The notes beneath the pieces were generated by a model that saw only the letters and a program-made list of their open reading frames with translations, was not told the origin of the DNA and searched no databases. A stretch of 64,000 nt of DNA from positions 1-64,000 of the forward strand of contig NZ_JAAEQH010000147.1 of assembly GCF_024231755.1 (NCBI RefSeq), read 5' to 3'. Below are positions 24,899 to 42,195 of this stretch, piece after piece; positions within the stretch are counted from its first letter, which is position 1, and the number at the start of each line of letters is the position of its first letter. The position numbers and the translations under genes are program-made. The stretch comes from Neptuniibacter sp. (GTDB taxonomy: Bacteria; Pseudomonadota; Gammaproteobacteria; Pseudomonadales; Balneatricaceae).

Positions 24899-25283
24899 AA
24901 TAGGCCAAGTGGCCAAACAAGCAGGCCTTACAGTAGAAGCTATTCGCTACTATGAACAGCGCGGCCTGATTCCAGAACCCCACCGTCTTGATTCCGGTTA
25001 CCGGGTTTACCCCGAATCCATTCTTACCCGCCTTCACTTTATTAATCGCTGCAAAGATTTAGGGTTTTCTCTGCAAGAGATCTCCGAACTGCTGTCTATT
25101 CAGATCAACCCTGAAAACAGTTCCGCTCTGGTAAAAGAACAAGTGGAAAATAAGATTACCCTGGTCAAAGAAAAGATCTCAGAACTACAAAAGCTGCAAG
25201 ACTCGTTAGAAAAGCTCTCTGGCCTATGTTGTGGAGATGGTTCGGTTTCCGACTGCCCTATTATCGACTTTTTAAAGCATTGA
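24885..25283 (+). CDS. MerR-family metal-responsive regulator, CueR-like
   Basis: 132 residues: HTH 1-25 (KIGQVAKQAGLTVEAIRYYEQRG has the MerR signature), wing, dimerisation helix 80-110, and a C-terminal metal loop with Cys116-x7-Cys124 (CGDGSVSDCPIID). The spacing and sequence match the CueR loop Cys112-x7-Cys120, and Ser80 stands where CueR has Ser77 and divalent sensors have Cys, pointing to Cu(I)/Ag(I)/Au(I) sensing. There is no adjacent copper ATPase or chaperone; the nearest partners are the 39-residue membrane protein and the MEKHLA gene. The ribosome binding site is poor and the start lies in a large inverted repeat. Confidence 0.85.
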   Translation: MKQLKIGQVAKQAGLTVEAIRYYEQRGLIPEPHRLDSGYRVYPESILTRLHFINRCKDLGFSLQEISELLSIQINPENSSALVKEQVENKITLVKEKISELQKLQDSLEKLSGLCCGDGSVSDCPIIDFLKH

Positions 25284-25403
25284 ATAAGCAAAGGGCAGAA
25301 TTGCTAGAATGCTTCGCTGCTAGTGGCAAGGAAAGCCTGATTTAGCTTTGGCAAATAGTGATACTATACGCGTGTAATTCAGATTTACGTTTAGGCTTCA
25401 TCA

Positions 25404-25880
25404 ATGGCAAAACCTAGCAAACCATCCTCAGAAAATAACTACAACGCAGAGCAAGCGGAACGGCTACTAAGTAGCTTCCAACGCTTGACAGGAAAGTCTC
25501 TTATACCTGCTGGCATCACCGGGAATGGTCGCTATAAAGCGCTCTACGATGCAGAATTCCCCGTACTGTCTCACAATGCAGAGGCCGATCCGAAACTGGA
25601 CTACTCCAATGCGGCAGGTATGGTGCAGTTTGAGATCAGTTGGGAAGAGCTGATTAAACTACCTTCACGCTATACGGCTGAGCCGCAAATACAGGAGGAG
25701 CGGGATCGCTTATTGAAGGCTGTAACCGACAACGGCTTTATTGATGATTATCAGGGCGTCAGAATTTCCGCAAAACAAAATCGTTTTTTTGTGGAAGAGG
25801 CGATTGTTTGGAATATCGTTGATGATGAGGGAACTTACTGGGGACAAGGGGCTGTACTCTACAAGTGTAAGCCACTTTGA
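25404..25880 (+). CDS. MEKHLA-domain protein
   Basis: 158 residues with almost the whole chain in a MEKHLA (PAS-like) domain: AERLLSSFQRLTGKSLIPAG near the start, then ALYDAEFPVLSHN, LDYSNAAGMVQFEISWEEL, LPSRYTAEP, DYQGVRIS and RFFVEEAIVWNIVDDEG. The domain is best known from the C-terminus of plant HD-ZIP III factors and from stand-alone bacterial proteins; its ligand is not established. Single gene, with a plausible promoter in the 120-base gap after merR. Confidence 0.85.
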   Translation: MAKPSKPSSENNYNAEQAERLLSSFQRLTGKSLIPAGITGNGRYKALYDAEFPVLSHNAEADPKLDYSNAAGMVQFEISWEELIKLPSRYTAEPQIQEERDRLLKAVTDNGFIDDYQGVRISAKQNRFFVEEAIVWNIVDDEGTYWGQGAVLYKCKPL

Positions 25881-26007
25881 TTCAGATTCTTCTGAACAGT
25901 GTTTTTAAACTGGTATTCCTACGCATTCATGAGCCAATATATTTCGTCTGAAAGCTAATTAAGGTTTTACGCTAGTGCCGGGACTATGTGGTTGAGATCC
26001 TCTTCGA

Positions 26008-28209
26008 TTACTTAACATCCGAGTAGACAACCACCTGATTTCGGCCTTGAGCTTTAGCCGTGTACAAAGCTTCGTCAGCCGCACTGAGCATATTATTAAA
26101 CTGGTTAAATTGCCCCTCTTGCCAGCTAGCAACCCCCACACTAACCGTAATGGATATTTCTACCGTTTGGGTTCTAATGTGTAGCTGCTCAATATTCTCT
26201 CTGATACGTTCCGCCACTTGAACCGCCGCAGCTTGTTCAGTTTCTGGCATTAAAACAGCAAATTCTTCTCCACCAAGGCGAGCTACAATATCGGTCTTCC
26301 GTGCAGCCTCAACACAGGCGTTGTAAAACACCTGCAACACCTCATCGCCAGCCACATGACCATAATTATCATTAACCCGTTTAAAATAATCTATGTCCAG
26401 CATGAGCAATGACAATGGTCGCTGGTAACGCAGCACTCGACCCATTTCATGATCAGCTAGTTTATTGAATTTACGACGATTAACCGCACCTGTGAGGGAG
26501 TCAGTAGAAGCAAGTCGACGGTATCTCTCATGCTCAATCGTTTTATGCTTAAGATCCATCAGCTGTCGTTGCTGTTCCACTGTGACCCTAATTTCCGCCT
26601 GCAGCAGACTACGACGACATTCTTCATAAGCGGCAACAGAGCGGCCTAGCTCGTCATCTGCAAATTTGTCGGAAAAGATAAACCCCTGGTCACCACGAGA
26701 AAGCCTTACCATCGCTTTGTTTAGCATTCGCACTGGTTTGATGATACTTAGATTGAGTAGCCAACATGCGCCTATAGTTAGCGTAATAACCAATATAAGA
26801 GCGATAGAGGTTATCCAGAGCTGAACCTGTGCATCCTTAGCATTGTTCTCTGCCTGAGATGTGATATCCAATACCAGACGATCTGCCAAAGCTTTTAATA
26901 GGTCTATTTTCTCTGATAAAGCAGCAAACCATAATGCCTCATTTAACGGTATATCCTGACTGTTCTCAGTCTGCAACGCTAAATATAGCTGCTGCTCAAA
27001 GCGTTCTACCTGCTCAAAACTTTGACTCTGCTCTAAACGTTGATAGGCCTGCTGCTGACTGACACTCGCCACCTGATTAAAATACTGAATCAGTCCCTGC
27101 TGCTGCCCCATCAAGGAGATAAAATTATGCAGTGCAGACTGATCTAAACGATCATCTGCCAGAATCAATGTGCCTAACGCACGCTCCTGGCCGGCAACCT
27201 CTTTTAAATTCACGACCGACGTAAAACTGGAAACATGGGACTCTAATTCTGCATCCAAGCCCATAAAGGTGAAAGTCGCTGGAATTTTCAGGAGGAGATC
27301 AATCACGGAGGTGTAATAGTGCTGCATCTCAACGATTGAGAGTAGCTGCTGATCTACACGTTCTCGCTGTTGCTGAATCACTGCTAACCATTCAGAGGCC
27401 TCTACTAACTGTTCATGCAACTGCTGCGGAAGTGTCTGCTGCTGTAGTTTTTCACTTCGTAGTAAAAACGCTTCCAGTACCTGATCTGTTTGCTGCCGTT
27501 TACTGGCTATTTCAGAAATAAAAACCCGGTACCCTGAGGCTATATACCCTGTAGTAAGCCCACGTTCCGCCTGCATGCTGTGACTAAGAGCATTAATCTC
27601 ATGAGCGATAGCACTGATTTTTGACAACTGTTGCATGTTCTGAGAGCGTTCGATAGTGCCACTCAGCAGGACCAAGCTGAGTAGAACCATACCCAAAGCA
27701 GGTATCAATGCAGTCAGGATAATTCGCCAGCCAAGTGCTAGGCGTGAACTGATATAACGCCCTATTTGTGAGAACCAACTAGGCGGCTTGGAGCTACTGT
27801 CAGTTAATCCCCTGTCACATAAACACTGATGGTAAGACATATCATCAACCACGATATGATTAAGCAGCCAATCCACCAGAAACAGATAAACATCTCGCGC
27901 TACTTCAACAGAATCAGCGTGCAGAAGTTGTTTTTTTAGTTCAGGAATACGTTTAAAAAAGGATTGATGACCAAGAATATGTTCATCAAGATCAGGATAG
28001 CCACCGCGCTGCATAATGGCTTCTTCACGCTGAAAGTGAAAACGCACATACTCTTCCAGCTTGGCAAAAACCCGACCTATAGTTTCCTTCTCGTGGTCTT
28101 CTTCAATGGCATGAGCTAATTCAGAAATAATCGCTAACAACCGCTTATGGTCGTTATCAATCTCCTCAATTCCAACACTTAAGCCCTGATTCCATTGGAA
28201 GTCAGCCAT
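26008..28209 (-). CDS. Hemerythrin-NIT-HAMP-GGDEF diguanylate cyclase
   Basis: About 733 residues. An N-terminal bacteriohemerythrin domain (1-130) shows the diiron pattern: DNDHKRL, FHFQREEAIM, GHQSFF and NHIVVDDMSY. A transmembrane helix near 160-185 leads to a periplasmic nitrate/nitrite-sensing NIT-type domain (AERGLTTGYIASG then KRQQTD), a second helix near 465-485, HAMP and a GGDEF domain with intact GGEEF (LGGEEFAVL). It should make c-di-GMP in response to oxygen or NO inside and nitrate-like ligands outside; the signals are inferred from the families. The start at 28209 (MADFQWN) is chosen over an ATG 12 bases upstream. Confidence 0.9.
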   Translation of the reverse strand: MADFQWNQGLSVGIEEIDNDHKRLLAIISELAHAIEEDHEKETIGRVFAKLEEYVRFHFQREEAIMQRGGYPDLDEHILGHQSFFKRIPELKKQLLHADSVEVARDVYLFLVDWLLNHIVVDDMSYHQCLCDRGLTDSSSKPPSWFSQIGRYISSRLALGWRIILTALIPALGMVLLSLVLLSGTIERSQNMQQLSKISAIAHEINALSHSMQAERGLTTGYIASGYRVFISEIASKRQQTDQVLEAFLLRSEKLQQQTLPQQLHEQLVEASEWLAVIQQQRERVDQQLLSIVEMQHYYTSVIDLLLKIPATFTFMGLDAELESHVSSFTSVVNLKEVAGQERALGTLILADDRLDQSALHNFISLMGQQQGLIQYFNQVASVSQQQAYQRLEQSQSFEQVERFEQQLYLALQTENSQDIPLNEALWFAALSEKIDLLKALADRLVLDITSQAENNAKDAQVQLWITSIALILVITLTIGACWLLNLSIIKPVRMLNKAMVRLSRGDQGFIFSDKFADDELGRSVAAYEECRRSLLQAEIRVTVEQQRQLMDLKHKTIEHERYRRLASTDSLTGAVNRRKFNKLADHEMGRVLRYQRPLSLLMLDIDYFKRVNDNYGHVAGDEVLQVFYNACVEAARKTDIVARLGGEEFAVLMPETEQAAAVQVAERIRENIEQLHIRTQTVEISITVSVGVASWQEGQFNQFNNMLSAADEALYTAKAQGRNQVVVYSDVK

Positions 28210-28519
28210 TATGCATATCACTCAAAAAATAAGATAAGTCAGCACCAGCCCAAGACATCCTCTGCCCTATCCATTCACCCTTTACGCGCAGGCTGCTATT
28301 AACAGCATAGTAAACGATCCACTCTATAAAACCATTGTGCTTTGTCAGTAATACAACCATATAAATTCAAAACTAAAAAACTAAGAAGAAATATTTTAGA
28401 AATGCCGTTGTAGATAATGAATCATAGGACGGGAAAGGAGGGGGCAAAGCACTTCATTGAGGAGGTTGACCTTGAAACTAGCGCCATATGCTAATCCAGC
28501 GTTCTGTAATTGCTTCATT
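28210..28519. other. Intergenic region before the hemerythrin-GGDEF gene
   Basis: About 310 bases between the start of the cyclase gene and the end of the solute-binding protein gene, both leftward. It should hold the cyclase promoter. Short ORFs here are continuations of other-frame shadows. Apart from a small GCTG/CAGC dyad near 28290-28305 I see nothing distinctive. Confidence 0.45.
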
Positions 28520-29344
28520 TCATTCCACTGGATGCATTTCTTCATCCAGCTGACTGTAATTAAAGTGCTCAAGAATTTTTGCAAATCGGTTTTCATTGGC
28601 GCTGTTCGTTGCTTGTTTCGCTCGGTTCAGCGCTTGTTGATAGTTTTCGACAATTCTGTCCTCGGTTTGCAGATTAAAAGCAAAATAGAGTAAGCCCGGC
28701 TGCCCAAGGTAAAGTGCCACTGTGTACTCTGCGGGTAACAGCCCTAAACGTCTTTGAATATCTGCCGCAACGTTCACATCATAAGCCCATATATCCAGAC
28801 TACCGTTCTCTAACATCATAGCGGCCTTTTCTGGGTTAACTAGGTGTATGATTTTGATATCTGGGATATTTAGTTCTTCGAGTAAAATTGCAGCGATATC
28901 ATTTTTAATCACCCCAACCCTAAGCCCTTTCATTCGCCTGTAATCACTATAATCCTGTTCAAGATATGAGCGGACAATTAAGCCATTTCGTGAAGAAATA
29001 ATAGGCCCAACCCATTTGAACAATCTTTCCCTTGCCTGTGTTCGATGTGTAGAAAACAGCATACTGTTCTTTTGTGTCAAAGCACGTTTATATCCCCTAG
29101 GCCAAGGCCCAAATTGAATATCCTCAACTCCTAAAGGGGAGCTCATCTGCTCAAACATTATCTTTAATAGCTCGACAGATATCCCCTGTGGCTTATTATT
29201 ACGATAAAAGTTAAATGGAGGGTAATGTTCTGAGTAGATGACAACCTCATCATCAGTAGCGTGAGCCATAGGACCCACAAGCAATAAAACTGCTAGCAAG
29301 AAACAAAGAAAACTGCGGTAAAGGGGAATAATCAGTAGACTCAT
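28520..29344 (-). CDS. Orphan periplasmic solute-binding protein, family 3
   Basis: 274 residues with a signal peptide (hydrophobic core at about 11-26, cleavage near AHA/TDD) and the SBP_bac_3 opening VVIYSEHYPPFNFYRNNKPQGISVELLK. No ABC permease or ATPase adjoins it, as is common for the Pseudomonas/Vibrio-type orphan proteins of this family that may sense or scavenge amino acids. The ligand cannot be inferred. It follows aspA on the same strand after a hairpin. Confidence 0.85.
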   Translation of the reverse strand: MSLLIIPLYRSFLCFLLAVLLLVGPMAHATDDEVVIYSEHYPPFNFYRNNKPQGISVELLKIMFEQMSSPLGVEDIQFGPWPRGYKRALTQKNSMLFSTHRTQARERLFKWVGPIISSRNGLIVRSYLEQDYSDYRRMKGLRVGVIKNDIAAILLEELNIPDIKIIHLVNPEKAAMMLENGSLDIWAYDVNVAADIQRRLGLLPAEYTVALYLGQPGLLYFAFNLQTEDRIVENYQQALNRAKQATNSANENRFAKILEHFNYSQLDEEMHPVE

Positions 29345-29424
29345 AATTCACTCATTATCGCTTGCGTATTAAAGAGTGTAGCCCAGATTGTCAGGGAAGA
29401 GCCGTAGAAGCTAGAGCAGGAGAA

Positions 29425-29446
29425 AGGCTTTCTAGAAAGAAAGCCT
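29425..29446 (-). terminator. Hairpin terminator after the aspartoacylase gene
   Basis: Arms AGGCTTTCT and AGAAAGCCT with a four-base loop, 24 bases after the stop of the gene at 29470-30360 and followed leftward by TTTCTCC. Weak T-run, so moderate confidence. Confidence 0.6.
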
Positions 29447-29469
29447 CAACAGAGCGCACGTTTAGATTT

Positions 29470-30360
29470 TTAAACGGAACCACAGGAAACTATTTTCTTT
29501 CGCATCAGCGATAATCCGTGCGCTTGGTCATAATAAGCCGCTTCATTCACAAATGCTGTGAAAACCTGCTCACTACCGTCATAGCAAATTGTTTCACCCT
29601 CATCTGTAATAAACAGTGGGTCACCGGGGTTTAGTGGCTGATAGTCATTATCCTGCACATCCGGATGAATCATCCCGCAAATATCACCTGTTTCATCACG
29701 CGGCAAATGCAATTTCTCAATAAACTCGTAGGTATGCAATTCCTCAGGAAGTACCGGAATCTCGTTATTGTTGTAGCGCTCAATAAAGTCCAGAGCATGG
29801 AACAAGCCGTCCTGAGTCAGCTTGAAAATATCCCAACGCAATAGCCCTTGCGGGACTGGCCCTACTTCAATTAACAAACTGTGTTTGGCGATAGAGCCTA
29901 AAAAGTTGTCTTCTGCCGGATCACGATCTTCGTAGAAAATAACGGCATCCGGAATCAGGCTCTGAATATAGGCAGCCATTTGTAGCGCAGGTTTATCATT
30001 CTGGTGCACCACCAGTGTTAACCCCATATTGGTGGTGGTTGTATGCAAGTCGATAATCCAGTCAGTTGCAGAATCATCACCTTTGGGACCATATTGCGAG
30101 TTGATTTCCTGAGCACGTTTTTGCTCAACGTTTTGAGGCTCGCCATTCAAAAGGGTATTAGAAAAGCAGCGATTTAAATCCTGCTCGATATAACGACAGT
30201 TCTTCTCTATTGCGGAGGTGTTAGCCAATAGTGTTCCTACTGTATAGCTGCGATCACGAAATTGGCTGATGTTTCGGTTGAGCGCCTTAACACATTGAAC
30301 TCCAGTTTTTTCATTTCCGTGAGTCCCACCAACCACCAACACACGCTGAATCTCCGCCAT
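29470..30360 (-). CDS. Aspartoacylase (AspA/AstE family)
   Basis: Zinc-dependent deacylase that hydrolyses N-acetylaspartate or related N-acyl amino acids. 296 residues from MAEIQR, preceded by GAGGG; a TTG 12 bases upstream is less likely. Zinc-site motif GGTHGNE (HxxE) near residue 12, a second His in DLHTTTTNMG, substrate motif NTSAIEKNCRYIEQDLNRCF and the catalytic LLIEVGPVPQG. The short form matches bacterial aspartoacylases rather than succinylglutamate desuccinylase. Flanked on both sides by orphan solute-binding proteins. Confidence 0.9.
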   Translation of the reverse strand: MAEIQRVLVVGGTHGNEKTGVQCVKALNRNISQFRDRSYTVGTLLANTSAIEKNCRYIEQDLNRCFSNTLLNGEPQNVEQKRAQEINSQYGPKGDDSATDWIIDLHTTTTNMGLTLVVHQNDKPALQMAAYIQSLIPDAVIFYEDRDPAEDNFLGSIAKHSLLIEVGPVPQGLLRWDIFKLTQDGLFHALDFIERYNNNEIPVLPEELHTYEFIEKLHLPRDETGDICGMIHPDVQDNDYQPLNPGDPLFITDEGETICYDGSEQVFTAFVNEAAYYDQAHGLSLMRKKIVSCGSV

Positions 30361-30471
30361 CACTGCCCTCAAACTGACTTTTTATTGAATGAGCAACGAG
30401 TATCTAATATGCGAGGCCACTTGTTAAGTTAGTTTTGGGATTAGAAGGATAAAGGGTAGATTTTTCAAAGT

Positions 30472-30484
30472 CCCCTATATGGGG
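30472..30484. promoter_or_regulatory. CCCC-TATAT-GGGG dyad in divergent gap
   Basis: Short dyad CCCCTATATGGGG in the 200-base gap between aspA and the solute-binding protein gene. It resembles half-site spacing of response-regulator operators, but with four-base arms it may be chance. Confidence 0.25.
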
Positions 30485-30560
30485 GTTAATAGAAACGTCC
30501 AAGCTCCATAAGAGTTGGTAAAAGCTCGTCTATACTGCTTGATAGATCTAGGAGTGCGCC

Positions 30561-31412
30561 GTGAAAGCTGTAACTTGTCTATTTGTGTACCTGCTGTTTT
30601 TTATTCCGCTTAGCTTTGCTAAAGACACTGTTCGATACACATCATCAGTGAAATACCCTGATACCAAACAGCAATACTTTATCGACACCCTAACCCTCGC
30701 TCTTGAGGCTACTAAGGACGATTACGGTGACTACGAGCTACTCCCAATTGAACTTGAAATCCCACAAGGTAGAACCTCCGCCCTAGTCGAGTCAGGAAAT
30801 AGTATCGATATATCTTGGAGGATGACATCAGCCGAACTAGAGCAACGATTAATGCCCATTCCAATACCTTTATTAAAAGGCCTAATGGGTTATCGCATAG
30901 GTATTATTCGTGAAGGCGATCAGCAAAGATTCCCTAGCAACATCACCGAGGGTCAGCTGCAGCAAATTATTATCGGTCAGGGCTATGACTGGCCCGATAC
31001 AGTGATTCTTCGAGAGAACGGTATGACGGTTATCGAAGGCTTTGCTCATACATTGCTTACCATGCTTGAACAAAAACGTTTTGATTTATTTTTACGTGCG
31101 TTGCACGAACCCTGGGTCGAAATAAAGGATAAGTCGGAATTTACAGTAGAAAAAAACATACTCGTTCAATACCCTGCTCCCATGTTTTTCTTCGTTAATC
31201 GCAACAATAATCGGCTCTATGAAAGGCTTACTGTGGGGCTAAACCAATCTATTGATGATGGCAGTTTTCAAACTCTTTTTGAAAATCATCCAGTGACAGC
31301 GGATATAGTTTCAAGAGCTAATCTTGAGCAACGAAAAGTGTTCAAATTATCCAACCCTTTACTCTCTGATGAAACGCAAAAACTTATAGGTGACAAGCGC
31401 CTCTGGCATTAG
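30561..31412 (+). CDS. Orphan periplasmic solute-binding-like protein
   Basis: 283 residues; GTG/ATG region with GGAGTG upstream of the ATG-frame start, signal peptide 1-20 (LLFFIPLSFA/KDTV). The fold resembles family 3 solute-binding proteins (YPDTKQQYFIDTLTLALEAT, later LRALHEPWVEI and FFVNRNNNRLYERLTVGL) but the usual ligand-binding arginine region is not obvious. Divergent from aspA. A CCCC-N5-GGGG dyad lies at 30472-30484, 76 bases upstream. Ligand unknown. Confidence 0.8.
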   Translation: MKAVTCLFVYLLFFIPLSFAKDTVRYTSSVKYPDTKQQYFIDTLTLALEATKDDYGDYELLPIELEIPQGRTSALVESGNSIDISWRMTSAELEQRLMPIPIPLLKGLMGYRIGIIREGDQQRFPSNITEGQLQQIIIGQGYDWPDTVILRENGMTVIEGFAHTLLTMLEQKRFDLFLRALHEPWVEIKDKSEFTVEKNILVQYPAPMFFFVNRNNNRLYERLTVGLNQSIDDGSFQTLFENHPVTADIVSRANLEQRKVFKLSNPLLSDETQKLIGDKRLWH

Positions 31413-31594
31413 CAACGCGCTATTTCTAGATTTACAGTTTTCCTGAATCATGAACCTAAGCCTTGCTCTAACCTTCGTCTACAAATTTCAGTTATAGCTA
31501 ACTTATAAAACCTACTATCATGTATTCTCATATTTAGGATAACGCCTAAGATTGGGTGTGCTCGTTAACTTCAGGATTAGGATAAGGGAACGAA

Positions 31595-32212
31595 ATGATT
31601 TCTTTAGAGTTTCTGATCACATCTTTAATTATTGTACTAATACCGGGAACAGGAGTTCTATATACAGTTGCCACAGGCCTATTGATTGGCAAAAGAGCAA
31701 GTCTATTCGCCGCACTAGGGTGCACGCTCGGCATTGTGCCAGCTATGTTAGCGAGCATTTTTGGCTTGGCTGCGATCTTTCATACCAGCGCCATTGCTTT
31801 TCAAGTTATAAAATTTGCCGGTGTCGTGTATTTACTCTATCTAGCCTGGATGACTTGGCGCTCTGCAACACCCCTAACCGTTGCTTATCTCGACACTCAG
31901 AAGCAACATACTGGAATTATTATCAAAGCCTTCCTACTAAATATATTGAACCCGAAACTCTCAATTTTTTTCCTGGCCTTTCTACCGCAATTCATCCCTG
32001 AAACAGCCTAATCTCCTTTGTACAATATGTTTGTTCTAGGCTTTATATTCATGCTTATGACTTTTGCAGTATTTGTTATTTATGGTCTGTTGGCAGGGCA
32101 CTTCAGTGAATTTGTCAAAAACTCAAAGAAAGCCAGTACCTATATGCAAAAAGCATTTGCTGCTGGATTTGCTGGTTTAGGCGTAAAGCTGGCCTTCAGT
32201 GGGCAGTCGTAA
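31595..32212 (+). pseudogene. LysE/RhtB-family amino acid exporter interrupted by one in-frame stop
   Basis: The N-terminal 139 codons (MISLEFLITSLIIVLIPGTG, with the family GPN/GTG-like turn and LLYLAWMTWR) end at TAA 32009-32011; the same frame continues without shift from TCT-CCT for 66 more codons (NMFVLGFIFMLMTFAVFVIY...) with normal family sequence to 32212. The join falls after LPQFIPETA, a well-conserved LPQF region, so a single base change has truncated a ~206-residue, six-helix transporter. An ATG soon after (32027) could restart the C-terminal part. It may be inactive, a recent mutation or a sequencing error. Confidence 0.85.
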
Positions 32213-32218
32213 AAACAC

Positions 32219-32243
32219 AATAACGAATAACAAGATCGTTATT
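32219..32243 (+). terminator. Weak hairpin after the LysE-type gene
   Basis: Arms AATAACGA and TCGTTATT with a nine-base loop, followed by TCTT. AT-rich and without a proper T-run; it lies between the exporter pseudogene and the convergent peptidoglycan-binding protein gene. Confidence 0.4.
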
Positions 32244-32284
32244 TCTTAACAGTCCTCAACAGCCTCGATCTCGATAGTCATCTG

Positions 32285-33787
32285 CTAAAAATACAGCCCT
32301 AAGCGGCGTTTAGTTTCTAGGTCGACCCAGCCGGATTCAGACAGAGACTCCGCTGCCTGAAATTGCTTCAATGCAGTAACCGTTCGATTACCCCATTGTC
32401 CATCCAATGCGCCGGGGTCATACCCTTTTAGCTCTAGGGCTTGTTGAACCTTTAAGACGAAATTGCTCTGCGGCCCAGCAAACAATGAATGCATAGTGGC
32501 TTGATTAGATAAACCATCCACTGCCAATCCAGCTGTCTGTTGATACAGAGCCAAAGCGGTTGTTGTCGCCAAGCGCCAATCAGAACCATTGGCGGGTGAT
32601 GGATACCCCTGTGCGAACAACGCGGTGTTCAGTAACCTAATTTGCTCGGAAGCCGGGACAACGGCATTGAGGTACTCCGGTAGTTGAACATATGAACGCT
32701 TTAACAAGACATGTAGAGTGTCCTGGTCAAACACTCCAGACGTCTTCAAGTCATGGGCATGCTGAAAATAGATATATTGATATAAGTTGTCTGAAGACCA
32801 ACGGCCATCAAAGCGCCCCGGTTTACCTGCCCAGTTGGCTAACGCAATCTGCACTTCCTGCGTTAAACGCACCCGCTGGAAGCGATTCAAATCAAGATCA
32901 CCCAGAAGTTGAAACATATCCAGCCTGTCAGGATTTACCTTCGCTATTTCAGGGTTAGCCAAAGCGATCTTGGTTAAACGATCTAGCTCGCCTGTAACAG
33001 GCAGCAATGGACTGTCTTTCTGAAATTGCAGCAAAGCTTTATAGGCCTGATAGCTCCAATTCTGGCCTAACTCCCCCGACCTGTAGCCCAACTCGGACAG
33101 CTGTATTTTAGCCGTCTCAGCCAACTCACCCGGATAACGTTGCGTACTGTACAAGCGATCATCAATCTTAGTTTCCTCATCGCAGCGTTCCAGATGACAA
33201 AATTGCTCAGGGTTAAGCGCCACCAGCGTTCTGCGTAGGTTCGTTATCTCTGTCTGTAATACAGTGATTTGGGCATGTAGCTGTTTAGGGTCGTAAATAT
33301 TGAGGTGTTTATTCTGATTTTCCAGCGCTTCAGCAATCGCCATTAACAACGATTCTTCACTTTCATAATGACCGGATAACTTAATAAAGACTTGCTGATC
33401 CAACAGTCGGAAATTGTATTTCAGAACATCCCCCTGCTTTATAAACTGTACCCCAGCCTGCAAATGAGGAGTGAAGTCACGGTTATTAAACAACACTTTA
33501 TTCGGCGTCAGTAACGCATTGATGACAGAGCCTTCCTGCACCAATTCCAAACGCTGCCACTGTATCTGCTGCCAGCGGCTAAACAGCTCCACCAGCTGTA
33601 CAACTTTGCGTGTTTGTTCGGCAGAAAGCTCACTCCCCTGCAGGTAAAACTCTCTGCCCGCAGCGCTTTGCAGATGTGACCAGCCATCTTGCTCAGACAG
33701 TTGTATTACGCCATGTTCTTGCCAAATATCAGCACGCACAGGCAAAACTAAAAAAGCCAAAACAAAGCTAATTACCAGTCTGCTCAC
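32285..33787 (-). CDS. Exported protein with tandem peptidoglycan-binding-like repeats
   Basis: 500 residues, GTG start overlapping the upstream stop by four bases (GTGA). Signal peptide 1-19 (cleavage near VRA/DIW). The last half contains four repeats that look like PG_binding_1 modules, each with an alpha-helical L-x-x-x-G-Y/W...GxW/xGxxxxxTxxALxxFQ pattern: around 230-280, 315-360, 375-425 and 440-497 (LKVQQALELKGYDPGALDGQWGN..., the clearest). The N-terminal half has no recognised domain and a Cys pair (CHLERC). Third gene of the cyclase/coiled-coil operon; probably anchors to or senses the cell wall. Confidence 0.8.
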   Translation of the reverse strand: MSRLVISFVLAFLVLPVRADIWQEHGVIQLSEQDGWSHLQSAAGREFYLQGSELSAEQTRKVVQLVELFSRWQQIQWQRLELVQEGSVINALLTPNKVLFNNRDFTPHLQAGVQFIKQGDVLKYNFRLLDQQVFIKLSGHYESEESLLMAIAEALENQNKHLNIYDPKQLHAQITVLQTEITNLRRTLVALNPEQFCHLERCDEETKIDDRLYSTQRYPGELAETAKIQLSELGYRSGELGQNWSYQAYKALLQFQKDSPLLPVTGELDRLTKIALANPEIAKVNPDRLDMFQLLGDLDLNRFQRVRLTQEVQIALANWAGKPGRFDGRWSSDNLYQYIYFQHAHDLKTSGVFDQDTLHVLLKRSYVQLPEYLNAVVPASEQIRLLNTALFAQGYPSPANGSDWRLATTTALALYQQTAGLAVDGLSNQATMHSLFAGPQSNFVLKVQQALELKGYDPGALDGQWGNRTVTALKQFQAAESLSESGWVDLETKRRLGLYF

Positions 33788-35109
33788 TGTGCATTCCTCT
33801 TTTTAAGCAAAATCACTTTATCCATAGCCTGAATGACTTGGCCGGTATTCAATTTGGAAACCTTAGCCCGCAAACCTTGCTCGGAATCCACAAATACTAA
33901 CTCCGCAATCAGTTGATCATCTTGCCTGAATACCAACGCCATATCGCCGATGTCAGTACGATACGGCCTAGCAAAATGGACAACCACATTTTCTGCATCT
34001 CTTGGATCGAGCACATATCCGGCCTCCTCCTGCTGGACTAATAACTTACCTAGAAAATACTGATAACTGTCCAGCTGTTGCTCAGAGGTGCGCAGGTTAT
34101 CCAATAACGTGCCACTCAGCTCGCTATAACTTGAATTGAGGCTGTCAGTCATCACTTGAAGGTGGGCAGAAGCTGACTGGGGTGAATTGATGTAGGGTAT
34201 TTCAGCGATACGTGATAACAGCATCGCCTGGTTTTCCTGGGTTGCAATCAACTGCGAAAGGGCACCGCTGGAAATAAGTCCCATATCACTTAGATACTTT
34301 TGCTGTTGCTCAGAAAAAGCTTGTGAATCTACCTCTTTTAATCGGGTATTCAGAATCTGGTTGATCTTTTGATCATCAAACTGAGGGTTGTAGCGGTCGA
34401 TTAGGAATTGCTTCTCTTTCTCAAATTCAGCCTTAAGATCTACTATGCGCTTCTCATAATATCGTTGTACATTTTTAATCCGCAGCTCCTGAAGCTTTTG
34501 CTCTGGGTTTAATATCGCAGAGCTACCTCCGGAGAATCGCTGAACCTCACCTTCCACCTGATCAATTTCAGCCTGCAATTTATCGATCTGAGCTTGTTTA
34601 CTGCCTTTACGCTTTAAATATTGCCCCTCCAGCACTTCCAACGCCTGTTTAAGCTCAGTGTTGAGTTGCTGAATTTGAACATCATCACTCTGCAATTGTG
34701 CTAACTTCTCCCGGCGTGCATATTCAGCCACTACGACTGATTTAAGATCGGCATGTTCGTTCTCAATTTCGCTTAATTCCGAGCGCAGCATATCCAACTC
34801 AACGTTGGAATTACCGATCGAAAACACCAACTCTTTTAATTTAACCTCATCAAACTCAGCAATATTGATCTCAACATTATTCTCCTGCTGGCGCATATAC
34901 AGATGAAAAGCAACGCTGGTAAGCAGCATGAACACTATCAGAGAAGAGATGATCTTGGTTAACTTGTAACTTCGATTCAGCTTGGAGCGAGCAAACTCCT
35001 GCTCCAGAGAATAGACACTGGCAGCTTCGCCCTGATGCAACGCTTCATGCGTCAGAAACGATTCTTTAGTGACACGTAAACGGTCGTTTACTTCGAAGTC
35101 AGAACCCAT
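33784..35109 (-). CDS. Membrane coiled-coil protein, unknown function
   Basis: About 441 residues from MGSDFEVN (an ATG 12 bases upstream is also possible). Cytosolic N-terminus of ~50 residues, one transmembrane helix (about 54-73, IISSLIVFMLLTSVAFHLYM), then a periplasmic region dominated by a coiled coil (roughly 85-260, heptads rich in Leu/Glu/Lys/Gln) and a compact C-terminal beta-rich domain (about 375-435). The topology resembles adaptor or bridge proteins. Its start lies inside the 3' end of the cyclase gene (22-base overlap) and its stop overlaps the next start, so the three products are probably made in fixed ratio. No family recognised. Confidence 0.8.
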   Translation of the reverse strand: MGSDFEVNDRLRVTKESFLTHEALHQGEAASVYSLEQEFARSKLNRSYKLTKIISSLIVFMLLTSVAFHLYMRQQENNVEINIAEFDEVKLKELVFSIGNSNVELDMLRSELSEIENEHADLKSVVVAEYARREKLAQLQSDDVQIQQLNTELKQALEVLEGQYLKRKGSKQAQIDKLQAEIDQVEGEVQRFSGGSSAILNPEQKLQELRIKNVQRYYEKRIVDLKAEFEKEKQFLIDRYNPQFDDQKINQILNTRLKEVDSQAFSEQQQKYLSDMGLISSGALSQLIATQENQAMLLSRIAEIPYINSPQSASAHLQVMTDSLNSSYSELSGTLLDNLRTSEQQLDSYQYFLGKLLVQQEEAGYVLDPRDAENVVVHFARPYRTDIGDMALVFRQDDQLIAELVFVDSEQGLRAKVSKLNTGQVIQAMDKVILLKKRNAQ

Positions 35110-36779
35110 GTTCCATCCCAATCACCTGGACACTGCCCAGACGTACGTTGCTTAAACTCATCTGCCACAGGTAAAGCGCATTGGCAGAAATACTCATGTG
35201 CTTTCTGCCAATCACCCTGATAATAGCAATTTAGCCCTTGTTCAAAGGGCTTCAACTGTTGTTGTAACACATCGCTATATTCATCGATTGGTACCGGCCA
35301 GTAGATAGGTAAGGCCTCATTTTTGCCTTTCACTTTTACACTATCGATATTGATAAACTTAAAGCCTGACTCTGCTACCGCTTGTAGAACATCATCCCGT
35401 ACCGAATCCGAACAGATCATGGGCACTTTGTAGATGCGGGTAAGCCCCTCAAGGCGTGACGCAGAATTTACCCGGTCACCAATCACGGTGGTGGTCATTC
35501 GTAGCTGCGAGCCTATAGTGCCATAAAACACATCACCACAATCGATCCCAACGCCCACATCCAGTAATACCGCCTGATAAATGGCCTCTTCTTGCTCAGT
35601 CAGCGAACCCTGTTGGGCAATAAGATCCTGCTTACGCTTTTCCATCTGCGTTTTTAAAGACTCAGTCGCACGAATAATGTCATGAGCTGATAAGAGCGCT
35701 GCGTAAGATTTGTTTTTCTCATGGTCCATCACACCATAAACCGCGAGTAATGCATCACCGATAATGGAAGCAATCACTCCTTCATGTTCATAGATATTGG
35801 CGATGGCATGATCGTATTGGATATTCAGCAGTTTGATAATGTCCGTGCCTAAGGTCTCCGTCATGTTGGTATAACCTTTGATATCGGTAAACAGCATGGT
35901 CAGCTGTTGTTGGTCGCCCTCTAAACGGATCTCTTTCTCTTCGTAGGCTTTTTTGACTATGTCTCGATCGGCGAATTTTTTAAAAATATTCACCAACACA
36001 TCCATGTTGTGAGATAGGACATTAAACGACATGCCCATGTAGGTCACATCGTCGTTAGGCGCATTTTCCAGAGGTATAGGTGCCAGTTTCTGCTTTTTCG
36101 TCATATCCATGATTTCATGGGTAATAGTACTGATAAAACGCAGAATATATCGCACCACATAGATAGCAGTGACCGCCGATAAAACCGTTATCAGCAGAAT
36201 AATCAAAATAATCAGCAGGAAGTTTTGCCAGGATTTTTGGTGGTAAGCCTCATCATCTTCACCCCGGAACAGATACATATCCCAGTGTTTGTTGTATTTG
36301 TATATACCAAAATATTGTTTGCCGTTTATCTCTGTAACAACAAAATCCTCATGCAAGGCTTCTAAGCTGCCACCACCCTTTTCCAGTAACGGCTGCATAT
36401 CAAACTTAGTCCCTTTCTGATCCAAAGTTGAGAAAACTATGTCTCCATTTGGCTCGAAGCCGAGAATAACAGAGCTCTGATTCTCAATTTCAAATAAGCT
36501 TTTTTTCTTTATATTGGCGAGGGCTTCAGCCCTATCCTGACTAATTTCGAAGATCTGCCACTGGATATTGCTGAAATTAGAGATCTCTTTTAGATCTTTG
36601 ATAAGTAACTGCTTGGTGAAGTGCACCTGATTGATACGGTTAAATACCAAGCTGATGTAGTTGGTGGTGAGATTAGAGACAATAATGAATAGCGTTAACA
36701 CCACAACAATCTTCAACGCTACCGGTATTACCCGGACCTTTCCAACCTTGTCAAAACGAACAAAATTGAGAAGTTTCAT
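35088..36779 (-). CDS. Membrane class III adenylate/guanylate cyclase with periplasmic sensor
   Basis: 563 residues from MKLLNFVRF. Transmembrane helices at about 21-45 and 186-212 enclose a ~140-residue periplasmic sensor (Cache-like in position, ends YKYNKHWDMYLF). A HAMP-like linker precedes a class III cyclase domain with both metal aspartates (Asp299 in FTDIKGYT and Asp342 in IGDALLAVYG) and the transition-state Asn438/Arg442 (VNSASRLE). The catalytic set is complete, so it is probably active; cAMP versus cGMP is not certain. The C-terminal ~80 residues look like a short helical repeat. First of a three-gene operon. An ATG 36 bases upstream is possible. Confidence 0.9.
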   Translation of the reverse strand: MKLLNFVRFDKVGKVRVIPVALKIVVVLTLFIIVSNLTTNYISLVFNRINQVHFTKQLLIKDLKEISNFSNIQWQIFEISQDRAEALANIKKKSLFEIENQSSVILGFEPNGDIVFSTLDQKGTKFDMQPLLEKGGGSLEALHEDFVVTEINGKQYFGIYKYNKHWDMYLFRGEDDEAYHQKSWQNFLLIILIILLITVLSAVTAIYVVRYILRFISTITHEIMDMTKKQKLAPIPLENAPNDDVTYMGMSFNVLSHNMDVLVNIFKKFADRDIVKKAYEEKEIRLEGDQQQLTMLFTDIKGYTNMTETLGTDIIKLLNIQYDHAIANIYEHEGVIASIIGDALLAVYGVMDHEKNKSYAALLSAHDIIRATESLKTQMEKRKQDLIAQQGSLTEQEEAIYQAVLLDVGVGIDCGDVFYGTIGSQLRMTTTVIGDRVNSASRLEGLTRIYKVPMICSDSVRDDVLQAVAESGFKFINIDSVKVKGKNEALPIYWPVPIDEYSDVLQQQLKPFEQGLNCYYQGDWQKAHEYFCQCALPVADEFKQRTSGQCPGDWDGTWVLTSK

Positions 36780-36965
36780 CCTGTAACTGCACTCCAATCT
36801 GAACTTCACACGCAAAGGTGTATCAAGGGTTCATTAGGAGAGTAGTCAGCCGTTCTAGGAAAGTCTAGGTATATATAGTTGTAGGCAATAGAGGCAGGTA
36901 AAGATGGCAACAGATCTTTAATAAACCAAGTACCTCGAAACCTTTCTGCTTAACCAGAATTCACA

Positions 36966-36990
36966 TTAAAAAGCCCCGCAAATGCGGGGC
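36966..36990 (-). terminator. rpiA terminator
   Basis: Stem GCCCCGC / GCGGGGC with loop AAAT, followed leftward by a T-run (AAAAA on the plus strand). It lies 56 bases after the rpiA stop and ahead of the divergent-side cyclase gene start region. Confidence 0.93.
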
Positions 36991-37045
36991 CTATAATGCT
37001 TTTTTGCAACGAAGCGCTGTCGCTTATTTTAGGCGGTTTTAACGA

Positions 37046-37717
37046 CTATAAAGTAATCGTTTCAACACCATTCGGCGTTCCCATCAGCACAACATCTGCA
37101 CCACGATTAGCAAAAAGGCCGTTGGTCACAACACCAACAATATTATTCAGCTGTGTTTCCAGTTCTTTGGCGTGCAGGATTTCCAGATCGTGGACATCCA
37201 GAATTACGTTGCCGTTATCGGTGGTGAAGCCTTCGCGCCATTCTGGCATACCATCCAGTTTTACCAGTTCACGAGCAACCTGCGAGCGTGCCATTGGGAT
37301 AACTTCAACAGGCAGTGGGAATTCACCCAGCACATCTACTTTTTTAGTGCTATCAACGATGCAAACAAACTCTTTGGCTACCGCAGCAACGATCTTTTCA
37401 CGAGTCAGTGCGCCGCCACCACCTTTGATCAGGTTCAGACCGGAGTCGAATTCGTCTGCGCCATCTACGTACACTTCCATTTCAGCAACAGAGTTCATGT
37501 CGAAGACTTCAATACCATGGCCTTTAAGGCGTTCTGCTGTTGCTTCAGAGCTGGCTACAGCACCGTCAAACATGTGCTTAATCTCAGCTAACGCATCAAT
37601 AAAGAAGTTTGCGGTAGAGCCGGTACCTACACCAACAATACTGTCTTTGTTTAGCTTAGGTTTGATGTATTCAACAGCGGCTTGGGCTACCGCTTTTTTC
37701 ATCTCATCCTGGGTCAT
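37046..37717 (-). CDS. rpiA: Ribose-5-phosphate isomerase A
   Basis: Interconverts ribose-5-phosphate and ribulose-5-phosphate in the pentose phosphate pathway. 223 residues from MTQDEMKK, which matches the usual ~220; the frame stays open upstream for 39 further codons without ribosome binding support, while AGGTG lies before the chosen ATG. Motifs [42 protein letters not shown] and the C-terminal GVVTNGLFA are all present. Divergent from ilvA, an arrangement common in gammaproteobacteria. Confidence 0.96.
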
Positions 37718-39397: not shown

Positions 39398-39426
39398 ATA
39401 TCTGGCAGAACTACTCTGCCAGATAT
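39398..39426. terminator. Perfect 12-base-arm hairpin between convergent ilvA and the GGDEF-EAL gene
   Basis: Arms ATATCTGGCAGA and TCTGCCAGATAT with a five-base loop. It starts 11 bases after the ilvA stop and its right half encodes the last codons and stop of the convergent gene. Neither side has a long T-run, so termination strength is uncertain. Confidence 0.65.
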
Positions 39427-42113
39427 CCTTCTCTATATAGGAATTCAATCAACTCATCTGCTGGCAGCGCCGGCGAAACCAAATACCCCTGTATCTCATC
39501 ACAACCCAATTGCTGCAGATAAGTTTTCTGCCCCTCATTTTCAACGCCTTCCGCTATCACTTTGAGACCTAATCCGTGCGCCATCGCTATAGTGGCTTTA
39601 ACGATAGCCGCATCATCCAGATCCTGTTCAATTTCGTTAATGAAAGAGCGGTCAATTTTCAGCTTATCGGTAGAAAACTGCTTTAGATATGAGAGTGATG
39701 AGTAACCCGTACCAAAATCATCAATCGCTGCTCTGACACCGAGCTTACGCAGATTACTCAGCACCGTAATCGCATTGTTCACATTATCCATCAGCATACT
39801 TTCAGTCAGTTCTAACTCCAGCATGGAAGGTTTAATACCGGTACAATCGAGCGCTTCTTTGATCTGCTTTTCCAAAACCACATGATCCTGGAACTGGCGG
39901 GCCGAGATGTTGATGGATACAGGCAGTGTCTGCTTTATCTCTTGTTGCCATTGAGCTGCCTGCTGACAAGACTGATGAACCACCCACTCTCCTATCTGAC
40001 AGATAAGACCACTCTGCTCAGCTACATCGATAAATGTACCTGGGTAAAGCACCCCCTCTTGCGGATGGTTCCATCGTAATAAACACTCAAGGCCAATCAG
40101 AGAGTTAGTACTAAGATCTATCTGCGGCTGGTAAAACAGCTCAAGCTGCCCAAGCGTTAGCGCATGACGCAACTCCATTTCCAGCTGCATTTGACGCTCA
40201 ATTCTCTCTTTCATCTCCAAAGTAAAGAACTGATAGGAATTGCCTCCAGCACTTTTCGCCCGATACGTAGCCAGATCTGCGTTTTTTAGAATTTCTTTGC
40301 TCTCAATACCGTCCACAGGGTAATGGCTGATGCCAATACTCCCCGACAAGAAGATCGAGTGGCCACCTATATCAAACGCTTCAGATAATGCACCAAGTAA
40401 TTTATCCGCTAAGCGGGCTTGATCAATATCTTTCTCAGCTTTGACCAGCAGTGTGAACTCGTCCCCTCCGAGGCGCGCAATAAGATCACTACTGCGACAG
40501 CAGGCTCGTAAACGATCAGCAACCGCACAGAGTAAGCGATCACCATGATCATGTCCCATCGAATCATTAATACGCTTGAATCCATCCAGATCGATAACAA
40601 GGACTGAAAATTCGAAGCCGCTACGCTCCGCCTCTTTCACATTCTGTTCAAGGAACTGCAGAAAAGCATTACGGTTGTAGAGCCCTGTTAGAGCATCATA
40701 AGTCGTCAGTTCAAGCAAACGCTCTTCAGTTTTCAGGCGCTGCTCTATGTTCGTGACACTACCACGGACAACCACGTCATCTATGGCAGGAAAAGGTACC
40801 AACCTAACTTCACAAGCCACTGGGTCGCGACGGGAATTGATATGTGTCCAAGTGAAACTCTCATAATCGCCTGCCAGCGCTTTTTCAATATGGTACTTAG
40901 CCCGTTCAGCGGAGAGAGTTCCATCTGGCTGCTCTTCTGGTGAAACATCTCTCACGCTCAATTTGAGCAACTCTTCCCGGCTGTAGCCATAGAGCTTCAA
41001 AGCATTATCATTAACATCGATAAAACGGTCTTGTTCCAGACTGAATAACACCACGGCTTCCGGCGCATTTTCAAATAGTGCTCGGTAACGCCTCTCATTG
41101 GTTTTTAACTCTTGAACGGTGGAGCTCAACGCCTCTTGCTGTAACTGCAAAGTTTCATTTTTTTCACGCAGCTGTTCTGTCGCACGGTTGATTCCTATTT
41201 CCAGCTTTGCACTCAAGCGCTGCATCGCCGCACGCGCTTTCTCCCGCTCAAGAATTACCGAACAGAGCAATAAGCCACACAACGAGATACAGCACATATA
41301 TACCTGCTGTATTAGTAACGACTGGGGAATATCTTCAGAAACAAAGGGGCCATAACCAGCTAAGGTGCCATTAATTGCAGATAGCGCAATGAACAAAACC
41401 AACAGCGTGCTTCCTCTGTAACCAAACCTATACCCCACAGCAATCAACAGGGGTATTGGTAGAAAAGCTAAGGGGGCGTGGGTCATTTCAACAACGGTCC
41501 AGCCGCCAAATACAATTAGAGCCAGAATGATAGAAGCGATGGTATAGCCGAAAACCTCTAAAAGACTGCTATCCGGTGATTTATATTCACGCGCAAAGAC
41601 CATAATTAAAGGGGTAAAGATGAGAATACCGACCAGATCCCCAAGCCACCAGACCAACCATATACGTTTAAATTGATCCATAGCACCGCTAGAGGACCAA
41701 TCCGTAACCGCATGACTGCCTATCACTGCAGCCAAAGCGCAGCTAACTACAGCGATCAATGTCAGTTTGAAAATATTATGCGGGTCGTTAAAGAAGTAAC
41801 GCCGAGTAATAAATTTATTGGTGAGAAGTAATGCAGTTAATGCTTCCAGACTATTACCAAAAGCAATCTGCAAGGCAGTTACACTGGCGCTATCCACCTG
41901 CCAGTTAACAAAAAAGGCTCCAAGAAACACTCCAGGCAACATGCCCATGCCACCGAGAAGTAACGCCGCCAGGCTGATGCCACTTGGAGGCCAGAACGGG
42001 CTGGCATAACCGTGTTCCGCCATACCCAAAGCAAGTTTTGCCGTAACCAAATACGCAATCATGACCACTAGGTTTAATACCAGAGGATTCTGAATCAACG
42101 TTGCCTTGCGCAT
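39411..42113 (-). CDS. MASE1-PAS-GGDEF-EAL cyclic-di-GMP protein
   Basis: About 900 residues from MRKATLIQN (an upstream in-frame ATG at 42164 adds 17 residues). Eight or so transmembrane helices in an N-terminal MASE1 sensor (TAKLALGMAEHGYASPFWPPSGI opening is typical), a linker helix, a PAS domain (about 345-460, RALFENAPEAVVLF), GGDEF (RLGGDEFTLLV, intact) and EAL (here ECLLRWNHP, with DFGTGYSSLSYLK and KIDRSFI intact). Both enzymatic activities look possible. It lies downstream of an RluA-type gene on the same strand. The signal is unknown. Confidence 0.9.
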   Translation of the reverse strand: MRKATLIQNPLVLNLVVMIAYLVTAKLALGMAEHGYASPFWPPSGISLAALLLGGMGMLPGVFLGAFFVNWQVDSASVTALQIAFGNSLEALTALLLTNKFITRRYFFNDPHNIFKLTLIAVVSCALAAVIGSHAVTDWSSSGAMDQFKRIWLVWWLGDLVGILIFTPLIMVFAREYKSPDSSLLEVFGYTIASIILALIVFGGWTVVEMTHAPLAFLPIPLLIAVGYRFGYRGSTLLVLFIALSAINGTLAGYGPFVSEDIPQSLLIQQVYMCCISLCGLLLCSVILEREKARAAMQRLSAKLEIGINRATEQLREKNETLQLQQEALSSTVQELKTNERRYRALFENAPEAVVLFSLEQDRFIDVNDNALKLYGYSREELLKLSVRDVSPEEQPDGTLSAERAKYHIEKALAGDYESFTWTHINSRRDPVACEVRLVPFPAIDDVVVRGSVTNIEQRLKTEERLLELTTYDALTGLYNRNAFLQFLEQNVKEAERSGFEFSVLVIDLDGFKRINDSMGHDHGDRLLCAVADRLRACCRSSDLIARLGGDEFTLLVKAEKDIDQARLADKLLGALSEAFDIGGHSIFLSGSIGISHYPVDGIESKEILKNADLATYRAKSAGGNSYQFFTLEMKERIERQMQLEMELRHALTLGQLELFYQPQIDLSTNSLIGLECLLRWNHPQEGVLYPGTFIDVAEQSGLICQIGEWVVHQSCQQAAQWQQEIKQTLPVSINISARQFQDHVVLEKQIKEALDCTGIKPSMLELELTESMLMDNVNNAITVLSNLRKLGVRAAIDDFGTGYSSLSYLKQFSTDKLKIDRSFINEIEQDLDDAAIVKATIAMAHGLGLKVIAEGVENEGQKTYLQQLGCDEIQGYLVSPALPADELIEFLYREGYLAE

Positions 42114-42195
42114 ATTGGCCGCTCTCCATACTGCAGAAATGAAGTTATTCGTGCACTTACACAATGACCGCCTAGAGTAGCAAATTTTTGAATGC

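Follow-up and report, generated by a model that had tools for sequence, protein, structure and literature searches.

Three intact open reading frames, all on the minus strand over 4.5 kb of the window (the whole 64,000-nucleotide stretch of Neptuniibacter sp. DNA that was analysed), form a genuine gene set that is neatly arranged and uncommon, but an orphan among the genomes searched. Gene 1 (35088..36779, minus strand) encodes a class III nucleotide cyclase of 563 aa, with an ATG start and two predicted transmembrane (TM) segments. Gene 2 (33784..35109, minus strand; 441 aa, ATG start) encodes a single-pass membrane protein whose periplasmic part is helical or coiled-coil-like and without a known domain, and gene 3 (32285..33787, minus strand; 500 aa, GTG start) encodes an exported protein with four PG_binding_1-like units. 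On present evidence, the triad is a new combination of known parts and not a new kind of system.

Genes 1 and 2 overlap by 22 bases and genes 2 and 3 by 4 bases, which bears out the proposal of the earlier note that the three form one translational unit. The rpiA gene is located upstream of the triad on the same strand, and the two are separated by a terminator-like hairpin (36971..36992, minus strand); the triad is therefore probably a transcription unit of its own, with its own promoter. A consensus promoter scan detected no minus-strand promoter-like site for it. Codon usage in the three genes is host-like, with z values of 5.5, 5.4 and 4.6 compared with random synonymous recoding (reference, neighbouring genes), and their codon scores (0.027–0.036) are below those of most reference genes. 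There is no Rfam match between positions 25000 and 40000, and no tRNA anywhere in the window.

Protein 1 matches the Guanylate_cyc family (PF00211) with 59.8 bits against a Pfam cut-off of 21.9, and the catalytic domain comprises residues 290–488 (35316..35912, minus strand). Its hydrophobic segments (residues 17–35 and 188–206) flank a stretch of around 150 residues, and from hydropathy this stretch (residues about 36–187; 36219..36674, minus strand) is predicted to be periplasmic; thus the periplasm-facing cyclase that had been described is supported as anatomy. The periplasmic domain has no Pfam assignment above cut-off. At E values up to 1, Pfam reports for protein 1 neither CHASE2, so that the protein is not assigned to the CHASE2 type, nor HAMP, although residues 209–262 look HAMP-like by eye.

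The catalytic residues were compared with those of 104 different class III cyclases, which were left when five identical rows had been removed from the 109 ORFs collected. The cyclase had been credited with a complete catalytic set, and this holds for the metal-binding Asp residues D299 and D342 and the transition-state residues N438 and R442, each of which is invariant in all 104 others, but not for the purine-specifying Lys. At this first base-specifying position protein 1 has neither the Lys of canonical adenylate cyclases nor the Glu of guanylate cyclases; its residue is Ser338 (codon 35766..35768, minus strand), where 100 of the 104 others have Lys, three Glu and one Gln. The four without Lys are L160, L165, L171 and L174. 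At position 337 protein 1 has Ala where 100/104 have Asp, and at position 430 it has Thr where 100/104 have Tyr. Thr431, which by our own reading of the literature numbering we take to be the second base position, is kept, as it is in 101 of the 104. Furthermore, no other cyclase compared has so long an arm between alignment columns 370 and 407 (37 residues in protein 1, 14–27 in the 104 others). A rapidly built tree of 105 rows, in which the placement is unsure according to a warning of the program, gives protein 1 the longest end branch (1.49, median 0.34).

Because the adenine-specifying Lys is replaced by Ser338, the product of the cyclase need not be cAMP. In PMC4215837, Glu at the first base-specifying position is given as the rule for guanylate cyclases, and the Lys-to-Glu change at the base position of Ma1120 lowered activity without abolishing it and raised activity with GTP; an enzyme that has merely lost the Lys is thus not necessarily dead. 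PMC11224242 states that base-pocket residues differ between pyrimidine and purine cyclases. With the base pocket altered, both the activity of protein 1 and its product are predictions, and cAMP cannot be named as that product.

Among known enzymes, protein 1 most resembles gammaproteobacterial membrane receptor cyclases of class III (PF00211). It has in common with them the catalytic fold, the residues for metal binding and the transition state, and a C-terminal end that is conserved. These enzymes comprise long ones, presumably of the CHASE2 type, and others with a short sensor, and the highest identity is about 33–36% in the catalytic part. It differs from these enzymes in its N-terminal periplasmic domain, in Ser338 in place of Lys, in the 37-residue arm and in its long branch. 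The pyrimidine cyclase of Pycsar (PycC) also has a class III catalytic core and departs from Lys at the base position, whereas protein 1 is membrane anchored and has a periplasmic domain, and its unit contains no Pycsar effector. Its best PADLOC match to PycC has 50.8 bits; since four canonical cyclases score higher with the same profile (92.9–109 bits), the match is generic, and we do not assign the unit to Pycsar.

Protein 2 is predicted to consist of a short cytoplasmic N-terminus, one TM segment (residues 53–71; 34897..34953, minus strand; from hydropathy, and preceded by four Lys/Arg) and an extended helical region in the periplasm. A heptad-like stretch at residues 88–201 (34507..34848, minus strand; segments 88–163 and 172–201) is helical in the structure model, which was calculated with no alignment and is largely helical, with a mean pLDDT of 43.9 and low confidence except at residues around 160–240. 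The number of heptad windows is 20, compared with a mean of 3.4 and a maximum of 24 in 200 shuffles, and so does not exceed every shuffle. The evidence for a coiled coil is thus moderate: of the membrane coiled coil described before, the single TM segment and the periplasmic helical part stand, whereas the heptad count is within the shuffle range and most of the model is of low confidence. Pfam and NCBIfam assign protein 2 to no family above cut-off, PADLOC reports none, and among solved chains the nearest match is weak (0.024).

Protein 3 begins with a signal-peptide-like N-terminus (residues 1–20; 33728..33787, minus strand), in which the hydrophobic segment spans residues 4–22 and the cleavage site was placed by eye. 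PG_binding_1 (PF01471) matches it in four stretches with 98.9 bits (Pfam cut-off 23), and a profile built without protein 3 scores it at 100.6 bits, compared with at most 8.2 bits for 500 shuffled sequences. The units score 7.0, 19.3, 10.7 and 60.8 bits in order, and the last alone is strong. Degenerate units are present at residues 226–277 (32957..33112), 309–361 (32705..32863) and 404–436 (in Pfam from about 380; 32489..32650), and the good unit is at residues 444–497 (32297..32458), all on the minus strand. These features agree with the exported protein with peptidoglycan-binding-like repeats that the earlier note had recognized, and from them peptidoglycan binding by protein 3 may be inferred. 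Like other PG_binding_1 proteins, it is exported and ends in a canonical unit; it differs from them in its three extra degenerate units, in the lack of a hydrolase or transpeptidase domain among its Pfam matches, and in an N-terminal region that has no relatives among the 60 family and 210 class genomes searched. No solved chain matched protein 3 at E values up to 0.01, and its structure prediction without an alignment was poor (mean pLDDT 34.9).

Relatives of each protein were then sought in samples of genomes, of which those at class and order level overlap; the best few candidates were scored per genome (for example, 4 of 24). Protein 2 has no convincing relative in 56 related genomes, 368 genomes of the class or 389 of the order (overlapping samples), although sequence searches easily miss coiled coils that evolve fast. 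Its only matches were itself and one weak hit in 57 genomes, itself and two weak hits in 369 genomes of the class, and itself alone in 390 of the order. The weak hits (G031, G423 and G057; 23.8, 23.6 and 19.6 bits) extend over 72–98 residues, and we take such short, weak matches for coiled-coil likeness and not for relationship. The catalytic domain of protein 1, by contrast with its full length, is found widely, in at least 209 of 369 genomes of the class, at least 238 of 322 of the order and at least 151 of 204 of the phylum, own genome included. Among the matches listed, the best other one has 120 bits, compared with 1266.6 bits for protein 1 against itself, and none is full length, all starting at residue 90 or later. 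A match with 46% identity (G550) was followed as a lead and dropped, its neighbourhood having no relative of protein 2 or protein 3. Protein 3 has matches in 19 of 60 genomes of the family and 37 of 210 of the class, counting its own, and the non-self matches listed all start at residue 384 or later, at the PG-binding end.

Pattern searches of the genome collection, which reach close relatives only, matched 91 stretches for protein 2 and 38 for a 121-residue piece of the cyclase, none of them a relative. Viral contigs contained no match for protein 1 or protein 3, and phages none for protein 2. In plasmids there was none for protein 2, protein 3 matched only through its last unit (two records), and protein 1 only through its catalytic domain (485 records, none covering 80%). 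The earlier note had named a lack of conservation of the triad as a ground for refuting it, and the same trio was indeed found in no other genome searched; it does not form a conserved three-gene system among them, and evolution provides no evidence for the three genes belonging together. The inactive cyclase that would also have counted against that note is not indicated, the metal and transition-state residues being kept.

The surroundings of other cyclases were surveyed in two ways. From 61 cyclase loci with 1.5-kb flanks, 37 close same-strand neighbours were taken; among 25 of their 34 Pfam families, SH3_3 occurs in two neighbours, SH3_4 in three and TPR families in up to three, and PG_binding_1 is not represented. 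A PG-binding profile was also applied to 45 wider neighbourhoods (6–16 kb), five around cyclase matches and 40 hand-picked among the matches listed, mostly of shorter cyclases, and it recovered nothing except the positive control, protein 3 itself. Since 0 of the 45 contain a PG_binding_1-like protein, a cyclase beside such a protein is uncommon in this sample. Three other cyclases exist in the same genome, and one of them, which is canonical (C270, L001:163-2512), is followed directly by an SH3_3 protein, a looser parallel to the triad. Seven matches to cNMP_binding are also present in this genome.

The triad occupies a variable slot between a MerR-family gene and rpiA (25283–37046), which measures 11.8 kb here and in genus-mates is either short or occupied by genes of other kinds. 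All ten genus-mates in which the slot was compared, two of them over no more than about 2.9 and 4.9 kb past rpiA, keep the ilvA–rpiA neighbourhood and lack the triad from the slot; protein 2 was searched in ten genus-mates, protein 3 in four and protein 1 in two. The slot contains a sigma-54 activator, an arginase, a Gate-domain protein, a TPP enzyme and an aldehyde dehydrogenase in G002, a CitMHS-PAS protein in G008 and a GGDEF protein in G001. The assembly is 88.66% complete with 5.86% contamination; a contaminant contig is ruled out, because ilvA is 84–90% identical to that of all ten genus-mates and gene order around the slot is kept, and thus the contig belongs to the genus. Beside the trio, a LysE-type translocator gene (31595–32212, plus strand) has an in-frame stop at 32009–32011 and a frame otherwise open to 32209.

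Our preferred reading, which we hold tentatively, is that the triad is a co-translated envelope receptor cyclase unit, in which a tether and a wall-binding protein are expressed together with the cyclase so that the state of the wall is converted into a cyclic mononucleotide. The periplasmic domain and TM pair of the cyclase would control a cytoplasmic catalytic dimer. Protein 2, anchored in the inner membrane, would reach into the periplasm as a long helical rod, and exported protein 3 would use its PG_binding_1-like units to dock on peptidoglycan or some other partner in the wall. The wall state, felt through proteins 3 and 2, might then change the cyclase in its periplasmic domain and thereby alter the level of the cyclic mononucleotide, which CRP-like proteins of the same cell, such as those suggested by the cNMP_binding matches, could read out. 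The contacts among the three proteins, the signal and the product are all parts of a model drawn from predicted domains and topology, and we infer in the same sense what the earlier note proposed, a sensor of the cell wall with a cyclic nucleotide as its output. The tight overlaps and the separate transcription unit, the retained catalytic residues, the predicted topology of proteins 1 and 2, the PG_binding_1-like units, the cNMP_binding matches and the SH3_3 protein downstream of another cyclase speak for this reading. Against it stand the lack of the triad in other genomes, the 45 cyclase neighbourhoods devoid of a PG_binding_1-like protein, the degenerate state of three of the four units, the altered base pocket and the moderate coiled-coil evidence.

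A different reading puts envelope structure first: proteins 2 and 3 would form a wall-anchored, trans-periplasmic scaffold or an accessory of adhesion or secretion, and the cyclase would sense separately, without direct gating by the wall. The single-pass, rod-like form of protein 2 and the wall-binding-like units of protein 3 suit this, and the cyclase, having its own periplasmic domain, needs no partner to sense. However, no structural or secretion genes adjoin the triad among the ten neighbouring ORFs scanned, and the two gene overlaps point to a fixed stoichiometry of all three products; we regard the scaffold as only slightly less probable than our preferred reading. That the genes are passengers of the variable slot, a set private to the species that may be decaying or accidental and whose joint function is hardly under selection, would fit the absence of the triad from the rpiA slot of the genus-mates, the varying content of that slot, the broken LysE-type gene next door and the long branch of the cyclase. 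Three frames intact over 4.5 kb with tight overlaps, host-like codon usage and the retention of essential catalytic residues count against this explanation, which we regard as unlikely.

The residues of the base pocket invite a further alternative, that of a cyclase with altered base choice (cGMP, cCMP or cUMP) serving a defence-like response directed at the membrane or wall. It draws on Ser338, Ala337 and Thr430, at whose positions Lys, Asp and Tyr prevail (100 of 104), on the difference between the base pockets of pyrimidine and purine cyclases stated in PMC11224242, and on the location in a variable slot. The PycC match is generic, the unit contains no CNB-TM or TIR effector in Pfam, and no defence genes were noted among the ten neighbouring ORFs scanned, all of which render such a role quite improbable. 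Equally doubtful is the strongest form of our own reading, a private and recently assembled envelope receptor in which peptidoglycan, felt through the wall-binding protein and the rod, gates the cyclase, and the Ser338/Ala337/Thr430 pocket makes a nucleotide other than cAMP.

In Candida albicans, the adenylyl cyclase Cyr1 senses peptidoglycan fragments. It resembles the proposed triad as a cyclase that reports on wall fragments and differs from it in being eukaryotic and in sensing within the cytoplasm; we claim no homology beyond the cyclase class. In the literature searched (titles and abstract openings), we found neither a bacterial second-messenger cyclase that relies on dedicated partners to read the cell wall nor a description of the trio, and to that extent the statement that no described system has this set stands. 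If both the coupling and the altered base choice are true, the triad would offer a compact model of how a wall signal is turned into a cyclic nucleotide and would lend itself naturally to testing which residues set base choice in class III cyclases, although its general weight is limited by the lack of relatives.

Two further proteins were observed in and near the slot. The gene at 26008–28221 (minus strand) combines Hemerythrin, NIT (nitrate/nitrite sensing) and GGDEF domains in one chain, and that at 39411–42164 (minus strand) encodes a MASE1-PAS-GGDEF-EAL protein. A partly similar protein of 1028–1045 residues exists in four relatives, and it is near the slot in at least three loci (L124, L125 and L130).
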